From: Accumulibacter sp.
GTDB lineage: Bacteria; Pseudomonadota; Gammaproteobacteria; Burkholderiales; Rhodocyclaceae
NCBI RefSeq assembly: GCF_029255125.1
Contig: NZ_JAPUVR010000090.1
Coordinates: forward strand, 1-58,517
Length of the DNA: 58,517 nt
Reading direction: 5' to 3'
The first letter of the stretch is position 1, and each line of letters opens with the position of its first letter. Positions 17,673-26,009 of this stretch are shown in pieces. The position numbers and the translations under genes are program-made. Under the pieces are notes generated by a model. The model worked only from the letters and a program-made list of their open reading frames with translations. It was not told the DNA's origin and searched no databases.

Positions 17673-20217
17673 ATGCGGGTACCGACCGCAGGGCGCGGCA
17701 AGGCCAGCGCGTGGCGCGCCGGGCCAGTCGCAGTTGACCCGCACGCCGCGCCGCGTCAGTCGGCGCTCGAAGCGCTCGACGACGAACGCCTGCTCGTGCT
17801 GATGGGCGGTCCCGGCAGCGGCAAGACGACATTCCTCAACTTCGTCGCGCTGTGCATGGCCGGCGAGCTGCTCGGCGAGCAGCCGACCGACCTGCGGCTC
17901 CTCCGCCAGCCGTTGCCGGTCGACGACGGCGACGACGAGGCGGGCACCGCCCCCGCCAACAAGAAAACGAAAGCGCCCAAGCCCCAGCGCTGGCGCCACG
18001 GCGCGCTGCTACCGGTGCGCGTGCTGCTGCGCGACTTCGCCGCCAGCCTGCCGCCGCCGGGCGTCCCGGTCGCCGACGGCGCGCTGTGGACCTTCATCGT
18101 CGGCCAGTTGCCGCAGCCGCTGGCGCGCTACGCCGACGAGCTGCAGCGCGAGCTGCTGGCCACCGGCGGCCTGATCCTGCTCGACGGGCTCGACGAAGTG
18201 CCGGACGCGCTGCAGCGACGCGAACAGGTCAAGCGGGCGGTGCAGGACTTCGCCGCGCTGCACGCGCGCTGCCGCTTTCTGGTCACCAGCCGCACCTACG
18301 CCTACCAGCGGCAGGACTGGAAGCTCGACGGTTTTGCCGAACGCGAACCGCTGCCCTTCACACGCAGGCAGATCGAGCGCTTCATCGACACCTGGTACGC
18401 GCACCTGGCACGCGACCTCTGCCGGCTCACCGAGAGCGACGCCAACGGACGCGCAGCCCTGCTCAAGCGCGCCACGCAGCGGCGCGAACTGCGCGAACTG
18501 GCCGGGCGGCCGCTGCTGCTGACGCTGATGGCGCGCCTGCAGAGCAGGAGCGGCGGATCGCTGCCGGAAAACCGCGAAGAACTCTACGCGCAATCGGTCG
18601 ACATGCTGCTCGACGAATGGGAAGGACTCAAGCTGCGCCGTGACGCCAACGGCAAGCCGGTGGTCAGCGAGCCCAGCCTCAGCGAATGGCTCAGCGCCCC
18701 GCGCAACAGGATCCGCGAACAGCTCGACAAGCTCGCCTACCACGCCCACCGGCAGCAACCGCAGCTCACCGGCACCGCCGACCTCCGGCAGAGCGCGCTG
18801 ATCGAGGCACTCTACGCCGCCTCGTCGGACCCCGACGTGCGACTGAAGTGCATCGAGGAATACCTGCGCGACCGCGCCGGGCTGCTCACCTCGCACGGCG
18901 AAGGGCTGTACCAGTTCCCGCACCGCTCGTTTCAGGAATATCTCGCCGCCTGCCACCTGGCGCGCTTCGACTACCCCGACACGCTGAGCAAACTCGCGCG
19001 CAGCGATCCGAACCGCTGGCGCGAGGTAACGCTGCTCGCCGCCGCCCGCTCGAAGGCCTCACCGTCGGCAATCTGGGAGCTGGTCGACGCGCTCTGCGCC
19101 GAAGACGATGCGCTCGACGCCGCCGATGGCCAGCAAACCGGCGAAGCACACTGGGGCGCGCTGCTCGCCGCGCAAGTGCTGCACGAAACTGGCCTCGCCG
19201 CGTTCAACCCGGACTTGCAGGCGCGCCACGAGCGCCGACGGCAACGCGTGCGCGACCGGCAGTTGGTCGTGCTCGCCGGCACGCGGCTGCCGGCGCGCGA
19301 ACGCGCACTCGCCGGCGACCTGCTGGCGCAGCTTGGCGACCCGCGCCGCCACCTGCGCGAAGTCGACGCGATGCGCTTCGTCTTCGTGCCGCGCGGCCGC
19401 TTCTGGATGGGCGAGGCGGGCAACGAGGATGCGCCGCTGCACGAGAACGACACGCTCGACGACGACTACTGGATCGGCGAATCGCCAGTCACCGTCGCGC
19501 AGTTCCGCCAGTTCGTCGAAGCCAGCGGCTACGCCAGGCACCAGCAGCAAGCCTTGCAGGCGCCGGAAAATCGCCCGGTGGCGTCGGTAAGCTGGCACGA
19601 GGCGCTTGCCTTTTGCCGCTGGCTTGACACCCGCTGGCGCGCGCGCCTGTCCGCCGGCTGGGCGGTGACGCTGCCTTCGGAAGCCGAGTGGGAGAAAGCG
19701 GCGCGCGGCGGCATCGAGATCCCGGGCAACGCGCTCTGCGCGACACTCGCCGACGGCTTCGTGCCGCCGCAACACGCGCTGCAGGCGAACCCGCAAGCGC
19801 AGCGGATCTACCCCTGGGGCGACACCTGGAATCCCGAGCGGGGCAATGCCGATGAGGACATCGGCCAGACGACGACTGCGGGCTGCTTCTCCCGCGGCCG
19901 GAGCCCTGCAGGATGCGAGGACATGGCCGGCAACGTCTGGGAGTGGACGCGCAGCCTCTGGGGAAAGGACTGGAGAACGCCCGCTTTCTGCTACCCCTAC
20001 GATGCGCACGACGCGACCCGGGGAAGATCTCTCTGCCAAAGACGATATACGCAGGGTCGTGCGGGGCGGCTCGTGGTACCTTCTCCGAGACCTCGCCCGC
20101 TGCGCCGTCCGCCTCTGGCGGCCCCCGAACCACTGGTTCGCCCATGGTGGTTTTCGGGTTCTGTTGCGCCGGTCCCATGTTCTTCCCCACTTTTTCTGGT
20201 TGCGCCGCCAGGCGTAA
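17673..20217 (+). CDS. NACHT NTPase fused to FGE/C-type-lectin domain, DGR target (frameshifted)
   Basis: A STAND-type protein of about 848 aa when one frameshift is corrected. A NACHT domain fills residues 40-320: Walker A MGGPGSGKTTF, Walker B GLILLDGLDEVPD, sensor VTSRTYAY. A helical segment with FPHRSFQEYLAACHL follows. From about residue 565 there is an FGE/SUMF1 (C-type-lectin fold) domain: RFVFVPRGRFWMGEAG, WIGESPVTVAQF, DMAGNVWEWTRSLWG. After YPYDAHDATR (about 20015) the FGE frame switches by one base; the other frame then reads KDDIRRVVRGGSWY to the end GGFRVLLRRS and a TAA. The variable C-terminus is a DGR-type target surface. The shift may be decay or a sequencing error. Without correction the frame runs on to 20450 with non-FGE sequence. 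Confidence 0.8.
20050..20170 (+). other. Probable DGR variable region (VR)
   Basis: This stretch encodes VVRGGSW, then highly irregular residues (YLLRDLARCAVRLWRPPNHW) and closes with GGFRVLLR. In DGR-diversified FGE domains the GGSW and GFRV edges are fixed and the residues between are those templated by AAC-type codons and mutated. The layout fits, but no template repeat with matching sequence is seen in the window, so diversification is not shown. Confidence 0.6.
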
Positions 20218-20260
20218 CGGTGCGACGGTACTCCCGTGCCGCACGCATTCCGAAAATGCC

Positions 20261-20290
20261 GACCGATTCGCGCAAGCGAATTTGCCGGTC
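20261..20290. repeat. Hairpin 44 bp after the VR-bearing gene
   Basis: The outer arms GACCG/CGGTC and inner arms ATTCGC/GCGAAT enclose a GCAA tetraloop, with three or four unpaired bases on one side. Inverted repeats downstream of the VR are used for target recognition in known DGRs. Here the distance from the VR is larger than usual, so the role is uncertain. Confidence 0.4.
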
Positions 20291-20393
20291 GAGGCGAAGG
20301 AAGAAGAACAGCGCCAGACGCGTCTGGTCCGCGCGCGCGCCGCAAGGCAGAGCGCCATCGGGGCAGCGCTCGCGCCGGGCAGATAGCGAAGCA

Positions 20394-20427
20394 CGGACAC
20401 GGCCTGGCGCAACGCCCGCCGTGTCCG
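20394..20427. repeat. Long hairpin between convergent NACHT-FGE and avd genes
   Basis: The arms CGGACACGGC / GCCGTGTCCG are perfect, and the loop holds a second GGCG/CGCC stem with a CAA loop. It lies between the two convergent 3' ends. No U-tract follows on either strand, so it may be a bidirectional terminator or an RNA structure of the old DGR. Confidence 0.45.
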
Positions 20428-20441
20428 CCCCGGCGCCGGCG

Positions 20442-20801
20442 CGGTGCTAAAGCCTGCGCGCTCTGGCGCAACCCGCCGCCGAGCAGCCTGCCGATGCCGG
20501 CGACCATCCGGCTGACGTGCTCGTACTGCCCGCTGCTCAACCAGTTCCACTGACAGGCGAGGCGCAGGTAGAGGCGCAGCTTGTCAAGTTCGCCATCGGC
20601 AATGCGCAGGTGCTGCACGCGCTCGGCGCGCTTGTGCGCATTGGCGGCGAAAATTGCCTCCTGAAAGTCGAGCGCAGCCGCCTGCAGCCGCTGGGTGACG
20701 ACGAAGCGGTGGCTCTTGGGAAAATGCTCGCACTGCGGCAGCAGCCAGCTCAGCAGGTCGAAGGTTTGCGTGAAAATGACCAGTTCCTTGGTCGTCGACA
20801 T
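20442..20801 (-). CDS. avd: DGR accessory variability determinant Avd (3' end eroded)
   Basis: The 120 recognisable residues form the four-helix bundle of Avd: MSTTKELVIFTQTFDLLSWL, SHRFVVTQRLQAAALDFQEA, KLRLYLRLACQWNWLS and QYEHVSRMVAGIGRLLGG. In DGRs Avd is a basic pentamer that binds the reverse transcriptase and the template RNA. The start at 20801 is supported by AGGAGA 9 nt upstream. No stop codon appears where the family normally ends (about residue 125); the frame runs on through nonsense for over 1.3 kb, so the 3' end appears eroded and I give the end of similarity. It follows the NACHT-FGE relic on the same strand. No RT gene is next to it. Confidence 0.8.
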
Positions 20802-20853
20802 CGGGACGATCTCCTGCGTAGGATGATGGATGGGCAAGCGACTTCGCACCGCT

Positions 20854-22899
20854 CGCCGGCAGCGTCACGCGGTGCGCGTCGGCGCCCTCGCCCATGGTGA
20901 ATTCTCCGGCCGGAATGTCGACCCATTCGGCTTCGCCGTGCGGCGGGCTCCAGAAGCGGTTGCCGCCGATCTTGCCGAGTGCTTCGGCGGCGGCGATGCG
21001 GCGAGCAAGGGCCGCCTGCGCACCGATGCCGCGCGTGAGCAGCGTTCTCGCCCGGCCCAGTCAGCCGACCGGTGCCGGCCGCTCGAGCTCTTCGAGCAGC
21101 CGTGCGCGCAGTTCGCCTTCGAGATTGCCGATCAGGCGCCCGGAACCCGCGTCGCGCACGCACTCGGCGGCGAGGACGAGGTTGTGCTAGGGCACGGGCT
21201 CGGCGCGCGCGTCGGCGATGGCGCGGATCAGCCGCGTCGTGCGCTCCTTGGTCTGCGTGCTCAGGTGGCCGGCGGTGAGCAGGATCACTTCCCGCCTCCA
21301 GGGGTCGGCGCTGCGGGCCAGCGTCCTGGCGACGTAGTCGTCGCTGCCGGCGATCTCGAGCGCCGCCAGATATTCCTGAAAGGTGAGATGCGAGAAGGCA
21401 TAGCTGCCTTCGCCGCGCGCGATGAGCAGGCCGGCGCGCTCCTGAATCAGCCGCAGCAGGCGATCGACCGCGGCGTCGAGGTCGCGCGCGTCGTTCACCG
21501 CGCCGGCGAGTCCGTCGGCAAGCGACTCGCGCAGCGGCTGCCGATCGATTTCCTTCTGCCGCTCGTCGTGCATGCGGTACGCCAGGCGCTGCAGGACGAG
21601 GCGGCGGTCGCTGGTGTCGAAGGGACGATCGCCGATCAGGCACCTTTCGCCAACGCCTTCGCCGATGCCCTTCGCGTCGTCCCACTTGCCGAGCAGCACG
21701 TCGATCGCTTCCTGGTAAAGCTCGGCGCGCCGGTCGGGCAGCTTGACGCGGTCGCGATGGACGAGCGCGATGACGGTGAGCAGCAGCGGGTGGATCGCCA
21801 GCTCGCGCACGCGCTCGTTGGCTTCGATCGAGGCGAGCAGTTGTTCGCTCTGCCGCGCGGCGGCGGCTTCGGCGCCGGCACCGGGACCCATCTGGCCGAT
21901 GGCGATCAGCCGGTGCCATTGCGCCAGGAAGCGGCGAACGTCGGCGAGCGTGAACTCGCGCACGGTCGTCGTCGCGTAGCCCGCGGCCAGTTGCGAGGCC
22001 TCGGTGTAGCCGATGATGCGGCTGGTGACGACGTAGCGGCAACCGGCGCAGGCGCGCGTGAAGTCGTCGACGCGGCGCGCGACGCGGCGGCGCAGCGCCG
22101 GATCGGCGACCTCGTCGAGGCCGTCGAGCAGCAGCACGGCGCGACCGTGGTGCAACCACTCGTCGAAGAAGTTCTCGGGCACGTCGATGCGCTGGTTGGC
22201 AAGCCGGCGGACGAGAAAGCGCAGCAAGACGAGGTGCCCTTCGGTGCCGTCGTCGCGCTGCTCGCCGAGGTAGCGGGCAAACTGGCGCAGCGGCAGCAGG
22301 ATGGGCAGCGTGCCGCTCTCGGTGATGGCGAGTTCGCGGCGCAGGTGCTCGCCGCCTTCGGCCAGGTCGCGCGCGTAGAGCAGCGCCAGGTAGCGCAGCA
22401 GCGTCGTCTTGCCGCAACCGGGGTCGCCGAGGACGACCAGCCGGCGATGCTCGGCGAGCGCCTGGTTGACGCTGATCTCGCCCGTTTCGCGCACCTCGAG
22501 GCGCGCCGCTTCGCCGTCGCTTTCGGCCATCCTGCCGGCCATCCTTGCGCCCGCCTGCCCGCCGCCGGGCAAGCTGCGCTGTCGCTCGCCGGGAGCGAAG
22601 GCGCACTCGCCGATCACGTGCTGCAGGTAGCGGCCGAGCGCGCTGGCGCGGTCCACGGCGGTCATCGACACCGGCGCGTCGTTGCCGATGACGACCGTGG
22701 CACCATTTTCGGCATAGACGATCTGCGCGCCGGGGTGCGCGGCGAGCACGCGGTCGCCGGTGTCGATGTCGCCGCTGTTGTCCGCACCGACCGCCACCCG
22801 CCCGCCGAGCCCGTGCGATTTCGGATGGATTGGCAAGCGCCGCGGCGGTCGGCACGCCTGGCGCATCGCCGGCAGCGCGTCGGCTGCTGCCGGGAACAC
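20854..22899 (-). pseudogene. Second NACHT-FGE gene, inactivated by stop codons and 3' loss
   Basis: The intact part (22899 to 21187, 570 codons) is a NACHT NTPase: Walker A LGDPGCGKTTLLRY, Walker B AVLLLDGLDEVAD, and YAFSHLTFQEYLAALE at the end of the module. The N-terminus contains AVGADNSGDIDTGD, a pattern seen before STAND domains. A TAG at 21187-21189 interrupts the frame after AEPVP; the same frame then continues sensibly (HNLVLAAECVRDAGSGRLIG). A TGA at 21061-21063 interrupts again, followed by ALGKIGGNRFWSPP and EWVDIPAGEFTMGEG, the start of an FGE domain. That domain stops after about 20 residues. An alternative start at 22927 (MKSNEPTDERVP) would need a frameshift. It precedes avd, as the diversified gene does in typical DGRs. 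Confidence 0.8.
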
Positions 22900-23067
22900 G
22901 CTCGTCTGTGGGCTCGTTGCTCTTCATGCCTGCTCCCGAACAGGGCTTGCCATCGGACGCTCGGAGAAACGCCGCGCGGCAAACGCGGCAACCGCAACGG
23001 TAGCCCAGGCAAGGCTGCCGCGCAATTCCCGGTCGGAGCCTGGTAGCGTTGATCCTCGACCGGCGCC

Positions 23068-23268
23068 GAAACGCCGCAGGCCTGGGATGCGCTGCTTGAT
23101 GAACTGCTGGAACCGGTGGTTGCCAATCCTGAAGGCTTCTCCGGATTGGGCAGGCCATTCATGCTCCGGCAGCCACGCTCCGTCGACACCACCAATGCCT
23201 TGACGGCGCTACGCGCAAAGTGGTTGGCGCTGACAACTGACCCGGTGGCACTACGCGAAGTTTTCTTG
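23068..23268 (+). pseudogene. Fragment of a RelE/ParE-type toxin gene
   Basis: The frame reads ETPQAWDALLDELLEPVVAN, then GRPFMLRQPRSVDTTNAL. It matches, with many substitutions, the complete toxin at 25620-26009 in the same orientation. The N-terminal third and the C-terminal sheet are missing, and no antitoxin is next to it. It is a non-functional copy just left of the island's repeat. Confidence 0.75.
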
Positions 23269-25602: not shown

Positions 25603-25619
25603 CCGCTCAGGTGCTGCGC

Positions 25620-26009
25620 ATGGCGAAAATGCTTGTCATCAAATTCACGTCTAACTTCGAGCGCAATCTGGAAGAGATCGAACGCTTCCTGACCGAACCA
25701 GAAGCGCCGCAGGCCTACGATGGTCTGCTCGATGAATTGCTGGAAACGGTCATTCCCAACCTTGAACGCTTCCCCGGCATGGGCAGGCCGTTCATGCTCC
25801 GGCAGCCGCGTTCCGTCGAGACCACCAATGCCTTGGCGACGCTACGAGCGAAGTTGTTGGCGCTGACCACGGACCCGGAGGCGTTGCGCGAATACGTGCT
25901 CAAGGATTACCTGCTGCTCTACGTGCAGATTGGTGGAACGATTTACCTGCTGGCTATCCGGCACCAGCGACAACTCTCGTTCGACTTCGAGGGACATTGG
26001 GGGCATTAA
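25620..26009 (+). CDS. RelE/ParE-superfamily toxin
   Basis: The 129-aa product begins with IKFTSNFERNLEEIERFLTE, the two N-terminal helices of the RelE/ParE fold. GRPFMLRQPRSVETTNAL and the final strands YLLLYVQIGGTIYLLAIRHQ follow; the RHQR-type end is common in ParE-like toxins. It would act on mRNA at the ribosome or on gyrase; the subclass is not clear. It pairs with the Phd/YefM antitoxin directly upstream. The start at 25620 is chosen, but GTG 25611 and ATG 25629 are possible. A damaged paralogue lies at 23068-23268. Confidence 0.85.
   Translation: MAKMLVIKFTSNFERNLEEIERFLTEPEAPQAYDGLLDELLETVIPNLERFPGMGRPFMLRQPRSVETTNALATLRAKLLALTTDPEALREYVLKDYLLLYVQIGGTIYLLAIRHQRQLSFDFEGHWGH

Follow-up and report, generated by a model that had tools for sequence, protein, structure and literature searches.

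Probable relic of an Avd-type diversity-generating retroelement with two convergent NACHT-FGE target genes in Accumulibacter sp.

The diversity-generating retroelement (DGR) of Bordetella phage BPP-1 is a phage-borne, complete and active system with a single target. Thiohalocapsa PB-PSB1 has been described to carry complete as well as degenerate DGR loci, the targets being of the NACHT and lectin type, and Accumulibacter is named in the same work among the bacteria with multiple related DGRs (PMC10907252); this work attributes the loss of the reverse transcriptase (RT) or of the template repeat (TR) at PB-PSB1 loci to transposons and arrays resembling miniature inverted-repeat transposable elements (MITEs). 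Here we analysed a stretch of 58,517 nucleotides from an Accumulibacter sp. draft genome (contig NZ_JAPUVR010000090.1), referred to below as the window, in which an avd gene lies between two NACHT genes. The locus is very probably the relic of an Avd-type DGR whose targets were two convergent genes for NACHT-FGE (C-type-lectin-like) sensors and which is unable to diversify itself. As in BPP-1 (mechanism in PMC12875486), A-specific changes in a lectin-like C-terminus are accompanied by Avd; the locus differs in being a relic with two targets. The likeness to PB-PSB1 lies in the NACHT/STAND targets with C-terminal lectin domains and in the occurrence of RT- or TR-less loci beside complete ones. 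Unlike the losses ascribed to transposons or MITE-like arrays and the action in trans at several incomplete loci reported from PB-PSB1 (PMC10907252), the loss of the TR in the window looks like recombination between the variable repeat (VR) and the TR, and no matching TR is found. The features of the locus are the following, with L063 denoting the orthologous locus of genome G010 and L069 a complete cassette of another relative:

17673-20010, plus strand: NACHT-FGE target gene 1, truncated at its 5' end (Pfam NACHT and FGE; alignment to L063)
20055-20181, plus strand: merged single repeat, with a VR core (GGSW to GFRV, 20065-20160), replacing both the VR and the TR of the relative (matches the VR end and the TR start of L063)
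20177-20460, plus strand: 3' flank of the lost TR, now fused to the VR (91.5% identity to the TR-to-avd stretch of L063 over 20055-20547)
20400-20801, minus strand: orphan avd (Pfam bAvd, 4e-18), convergent with target gene 1
20803-20854, no strand: deletion scar; other loci have the RT, VR2 and the greater part of FGE2 at this site (homology breaks relative to L069 and G010)
20854-22899, minus strand: relic of target gene 2, a NACHT open reading frame (ORF; 22899-21187) followed by an out-of-frame remnant, without VR (Pfam and alignment to L063)

The segment running from GGSW to GFRV is a true VR bearing the A-specific scars of mutagenic retrohoming. When it is compared with the TR of G010, which belongs to another species of the same genus, 14 of 21 A positions are changed against 3 of 88 non-A positions (Fisher p = 4e-10; the alignment holds one 3-base gap close to the 3' end). 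Upon permutation of the 17 mismatches, 0 of 100,000 random placements reach the observed A bias, and in the reverse direction none of the 7 A of the window VR is mismatched against the G010 TR. All nine TRs tested against the window VR give an A-biased pattern (p <= 1.3e-06), the eight other than that of G010 with 15-20 non-A mismatches. We rejected the possibility that 20055-20181 is itself a TR, since the changed positions are its A sites and only 7 A are left versus 21. An earlier sequence-only reading of the window had pointed to a VR-like C-terminus at this place: the VR is real, but it does not lie in the frame of the ORF to which it had been assigned. The A-specific substitution test which that reading had called for is positive against the G010 TR and excludes in practice that the gene was never a DGR target.

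The form of the parent cassette can be seen in the relatives. With one genome taken per species, 15 of 61 genomes match the VR region, all of the same genus, and 18 loci were fetched. Target VR, TR, avd and RT are found together in seven of these (L066, L068, L069, L071, L072, L073 and L078, where L072 and L078 give identical matches at shifted positions). The order is NACHT-FGE gene with its VR, TR, avd on the opposite strand, and RT, with a second NACHT-FGE target in several loci; the RTs of the complete cassettes carry the motifs GLPIGNLTSQ and YVDD. TR/VR pairs scored within the relative loci are A-biased in 14 of 15 cases (p <= 5.6e-06), the misfit being G025 (10/24 A and 24/88 non-A); four regions, one of G020 and three of G022, were not extracted and are left out of this count. 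The complete Avd-type cassettes of same-genus genomes (L069, L066, L068, L072 and L073) have in common with the window the NACHT-FGE targets, the TR 3' flank, avd and their order. In these cassettes, unlike in the window, the TR is still a repeat of its own, an RT is present, and the TR is matched at non-A sites by most of the VRs. In G010, an A-rich TR is located 282 bp beyond the VR of the orthologous NACHT-FGE gene, and VR2 differs from it at 12/20 A and 0/88 non-A positions. This copy is itself without RT and has only part of avd. Because it lost these pieces yet keeps the TR and the VRs, the locus appears to decay stepwise, with steps that differ between species.

The ORF at 17673-20450 (925 aa) contains both a NACHT (1.9e-08) and an FGE-sulfatase domain (4.2e-34) by Pfam, in agreement with the fusion proposed from the letters alone, as is the convergent position of avd. 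Somewhere between about 20000 and 20026 the FGE frame is abandoned; Pfam finds the tail of the domain in a different frame (0.0029). The GGSW to GFRV segment is outside the frame of the 925-aa ORF and sits in ORF 19846-20217; because the VR lies in this other frame, which stops at 20217, the end of the 925-aa ORF is out-of-frame. What is left is a lectin-like (FGE) target carrying a C-terminal VR that is now in another frame, while in the G010 ortholog VR and FGE are in frame with each other. The two genes are 88.9% identical across 17691-20181. Homology starts at 17691, about 288 codons into the ortholog ORF (1114 aa), and the corresponding N-terminal region is absent from the window; in G010 it gives matches to DUF4062 (0.00038) and TIR_2 (0.0026), both under the Pfam cut-offs. 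For the NACHT proteins PADLOC returned no more than weak partial matches, and the closest NACHT-FGE protein in the named-genome collection, from which records of the own genome are possibly excluded, belongs to Ca. Accumulibacter adjunctus (67%).

The mapping onto L063 points to how the TR may have been lost. The stretch 17691-20181 corresponds to NACHT-FGE plus VR, and 20055-20547 to the TR, its 3' flank and part of avd. Because 20055-20181 is claimed by both, VR and TR are now one repeat. The window core is VR-like throughout, with A changed at 8 of 11 positions in the first 50 bases and at 6 of 10 after; as it remains so to its end and the TR flank follows from 20177, the crossover would fall in the shared 3' stretch. 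Recombination of these two direct repeats at about 20138-20177 would have deleted about 280 bp including the TR. Nothing in the assembly corresponds to the stretch that separates VR and TR in G010 (best match to this spacer alone E 0.288), and BLAST to E 10 brings up the VR/TR core nowhere else (best in core E 0.028). Among the 13 loci with this TR 3' flank, i.e., the window and 12 of the 18 fetched, this flank is directly joined to FGE coding sequence in two, the window and G026. Scored against another species' TR, the G026 repeat is VR-like in its first half (9/11 A changed) and TR-like in the remainder (1/10), and the NACHT-FGE gene of G026 likewise changes frame. The G026 crossover would therefore fall within the core, and the window and G026 events appear to be independent of each other.

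The other parts of the locus are also damaged. In avd no stop codon occurs near the point where the gene would be expected to end, and its frame is open to 19059, whereas avd in relatives (e.g., L066, L068, L069, L072 and L073) terminates soon after the domain; its identity to the avd of RT-bearing relatives is 52-77%. Beyond avd, similarity to the complete cassette L069 stops at 20803 and that to the second NACHT gene of G010 restarts at 20854, so that only about 50 bp separate avd from the NACHT2 remnant. A separate deletion, before or after the VR-TR crossover, would have removed the RT together with FGE2 and VR2. The protein encoded at 22899-21187 on the minus strand matches Pfam NACHT (7e-11). 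Its ORF stops at 21187, and homology to the relative's NACHT-FGE continues only to 20854, with 86.5% identity to L063 over 20854-22495. FGE2 and VR2 are present in L063, and Pfam finds no FGE domain in the 59-codon remnant at 20803-20979. The sequence-only reading had placed a second NACHT-FGE gene before avd in the usual cis arrangement; an intact gene it is not, its FGE/VR part being deleted. Neither L063 nor L064 shares the sequences flanking the relic, which leaves no synteny for dating the loss. Just past the relic, the stretches 23053-23259 and 25687-25892 are 82% identical, the former duplicating part of a toxin-like ORF (25611-26009) and being possibly the trace of a rearrangement at the right end of the relic.

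No DGR-type RT was found at the locus. The genome contains two RVT_1 matches, on contigs C100 and C121, neither on the window contig, which bears out the absence of an RT noted from the window alone. The C100 RT was rejected as a DGR RT, being fused to Cas1 (Cas_Cas1 1.3e-73); this fusion (L001, C100:221523) is preceded by a tandem-repeat stretch. An Avd-type RT was not found in the own genome, the best match being C121 at 33%. The C121 RT is DGR-like, of another lineage, with the motifs GLPIGSLCSQ and YMDH and its own TR behind it. A motif search in 12 RT loci (one, the fragment L056, gave no match) reads YMDD in 11 of 11 scored orthologs, and because of this the C121 enzyme may be impaired. 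A TR matching the window VR except at A was not found in the assembly, where only the TR 3' flank remains. The genome-wide search proposed earlier for a DGR RT with a fitting TR thus yielded one DGR-like RT, whose TR does not fit.

Could the orphan VR still be diversified by an RT and a TR elsewhere in the genome? On C121 a DGR-like RT is indeed accompanied by a TR, C133 carries a TR together with avd, and some VRs elsewhere in the genome fit these TRs: one on C8 fits the C133 TR (13/27 A, 2/81 non-A), and looser fits to the C121 TR occur on C40 (12/18 A, 8/85 non-A) and C22 (13/18 A, 19/85 non-A). However, neither TR can be taken to serve the window VR, and both were rejected, since they differ from it at 31/88 (C121) and 21/80 (C133) non-A positions, compared with 3/88 for the TR of G010. 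Moreover, an A-tolerant pattern allowing up to 3 mismatches returns the window copy as the sole match in the assembly, the C121 RT reads YMDH instead of YMDD, and the target is out of frame ahead of the VR; we regard action in trans as very improbable. That the locus is no DGR relic, but an ordinary NACHT-FGE gene beside an unrelated gene of the 23S-rRNA intervening protein type, draws on the occurrence of FGE domains without DGRs and on the resemblance of these proteins to Avd (PF05635, 6e-08). The better bAvd score, the extreme A-specific pattern and the same gene set flanking an RT in relatives leave this explanation with a negligible probability. An assembly artefact, in which an intact DGR was misassembled from short reads by a jump from the VR to the TR flank that dropped the RT segment, is improbable too, if less so than action in trans. 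The stretches that VR and TR have in common are of a length at which an assembler using short k-mers could go astray, the draft has 150 contigs, and a similar joint occurs in G026; against this, searches of the assembly turned up neither the spacer that would have been skipped nor an Avd-type RT, the TR is separate in 11 of 13 comparable loci, several of them from draft genomes, and the further damage comprises the 5' truncation, the out-of-frame second target and the loss of FGE2.

Between the alternatives of the earlier reading, "decayed or trans-acting", the first is supported: RT and TR are missing, avd and the two targets bear damage, and the VR runs on into the TR flank. The second is not supported for this VR; "dead" describes the locus far better, and this is most likely its state. 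As judged from the assembly, the locus would no longer be able to diversify itself, and no partner is found in the genome. Several points weigh against a dead relic. The draft is 99.96% complete, and an RT or TR might sit in a gap between its 150 contigs; likewise, the collapse or the frame change, as read from the assembly, might be an assembly or sequencing error. In Thiohalocapsa PB-PSB1, diversification in trans persists at some incomplete loci, and loci that are broken in the reference survive intact in part of the cells of a population (PMC10907252). Finally, the ratio of nonsynonymous to synonymous substitution rates (dN/dS) against G010 is 0.29 for both NACHT genes. Other close pairs give 0.26-0.31; as the ratio is no higher than in these pairs and shows no relaxation, the decay would be either recent or not measurable.

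Further DGR lineages were observed in the course of this analysis. A second one (L015, C133:1412 and 2035) consists of an FGE target VR, an avd with one TGA within the match and a TR rich in N codons, with no RT adjoining; a VR of the same lineage lies on a separate contig (L016, C8:1449), and both VRs give 13/27 A and 2/81 non-A against the C133 TR. G026 (C152, C106) and G004 (C125) have an RT between avd and a TR resembling that of C133. The third lineage (L011, C121:10370-12783) comprises an HRDC-domain gene, the YMDH RT and its TR; the FGE gene adjoining this RT misfits the TR (10/18 A, 31/85 non-A), C40 fitting better. At both ends of C106 (L013:8866 and L014:486), two VR-like FGE tails have GVRVVCVSPILLN in common and differ in their middles; none of the loci fetched supplied a TR for them.

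Degenerate NACHT/lectin DGRs are already published, and the window locus has an unusually readable history. Proteins of the NACHT-lectin type diversified by DGRs have been proposed as antigen sensors of aggregate-forming bacteria, and this locus documents that such diversification was once in use, that it was lost later, and in which pieces this happened. No description of a VR-TR collapse was recognised in the open-licence library searched, from which many journals are absent, so that this is weak evidence of novelty. We put forward tentatively, at somewhat less than even confidence, that VR-TR recombination is a built-in and recurrent route by which DGRs die or freeze one sensor variant for good, with the window and G026 as two independent cases differing in crossover point. 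If so, a single recombination event eliminates the template, and the variant written last stays in place. Were such a collapse common, it would account for avd genes and VRs that stand alone, and having template and target next to each other would carry a cost.

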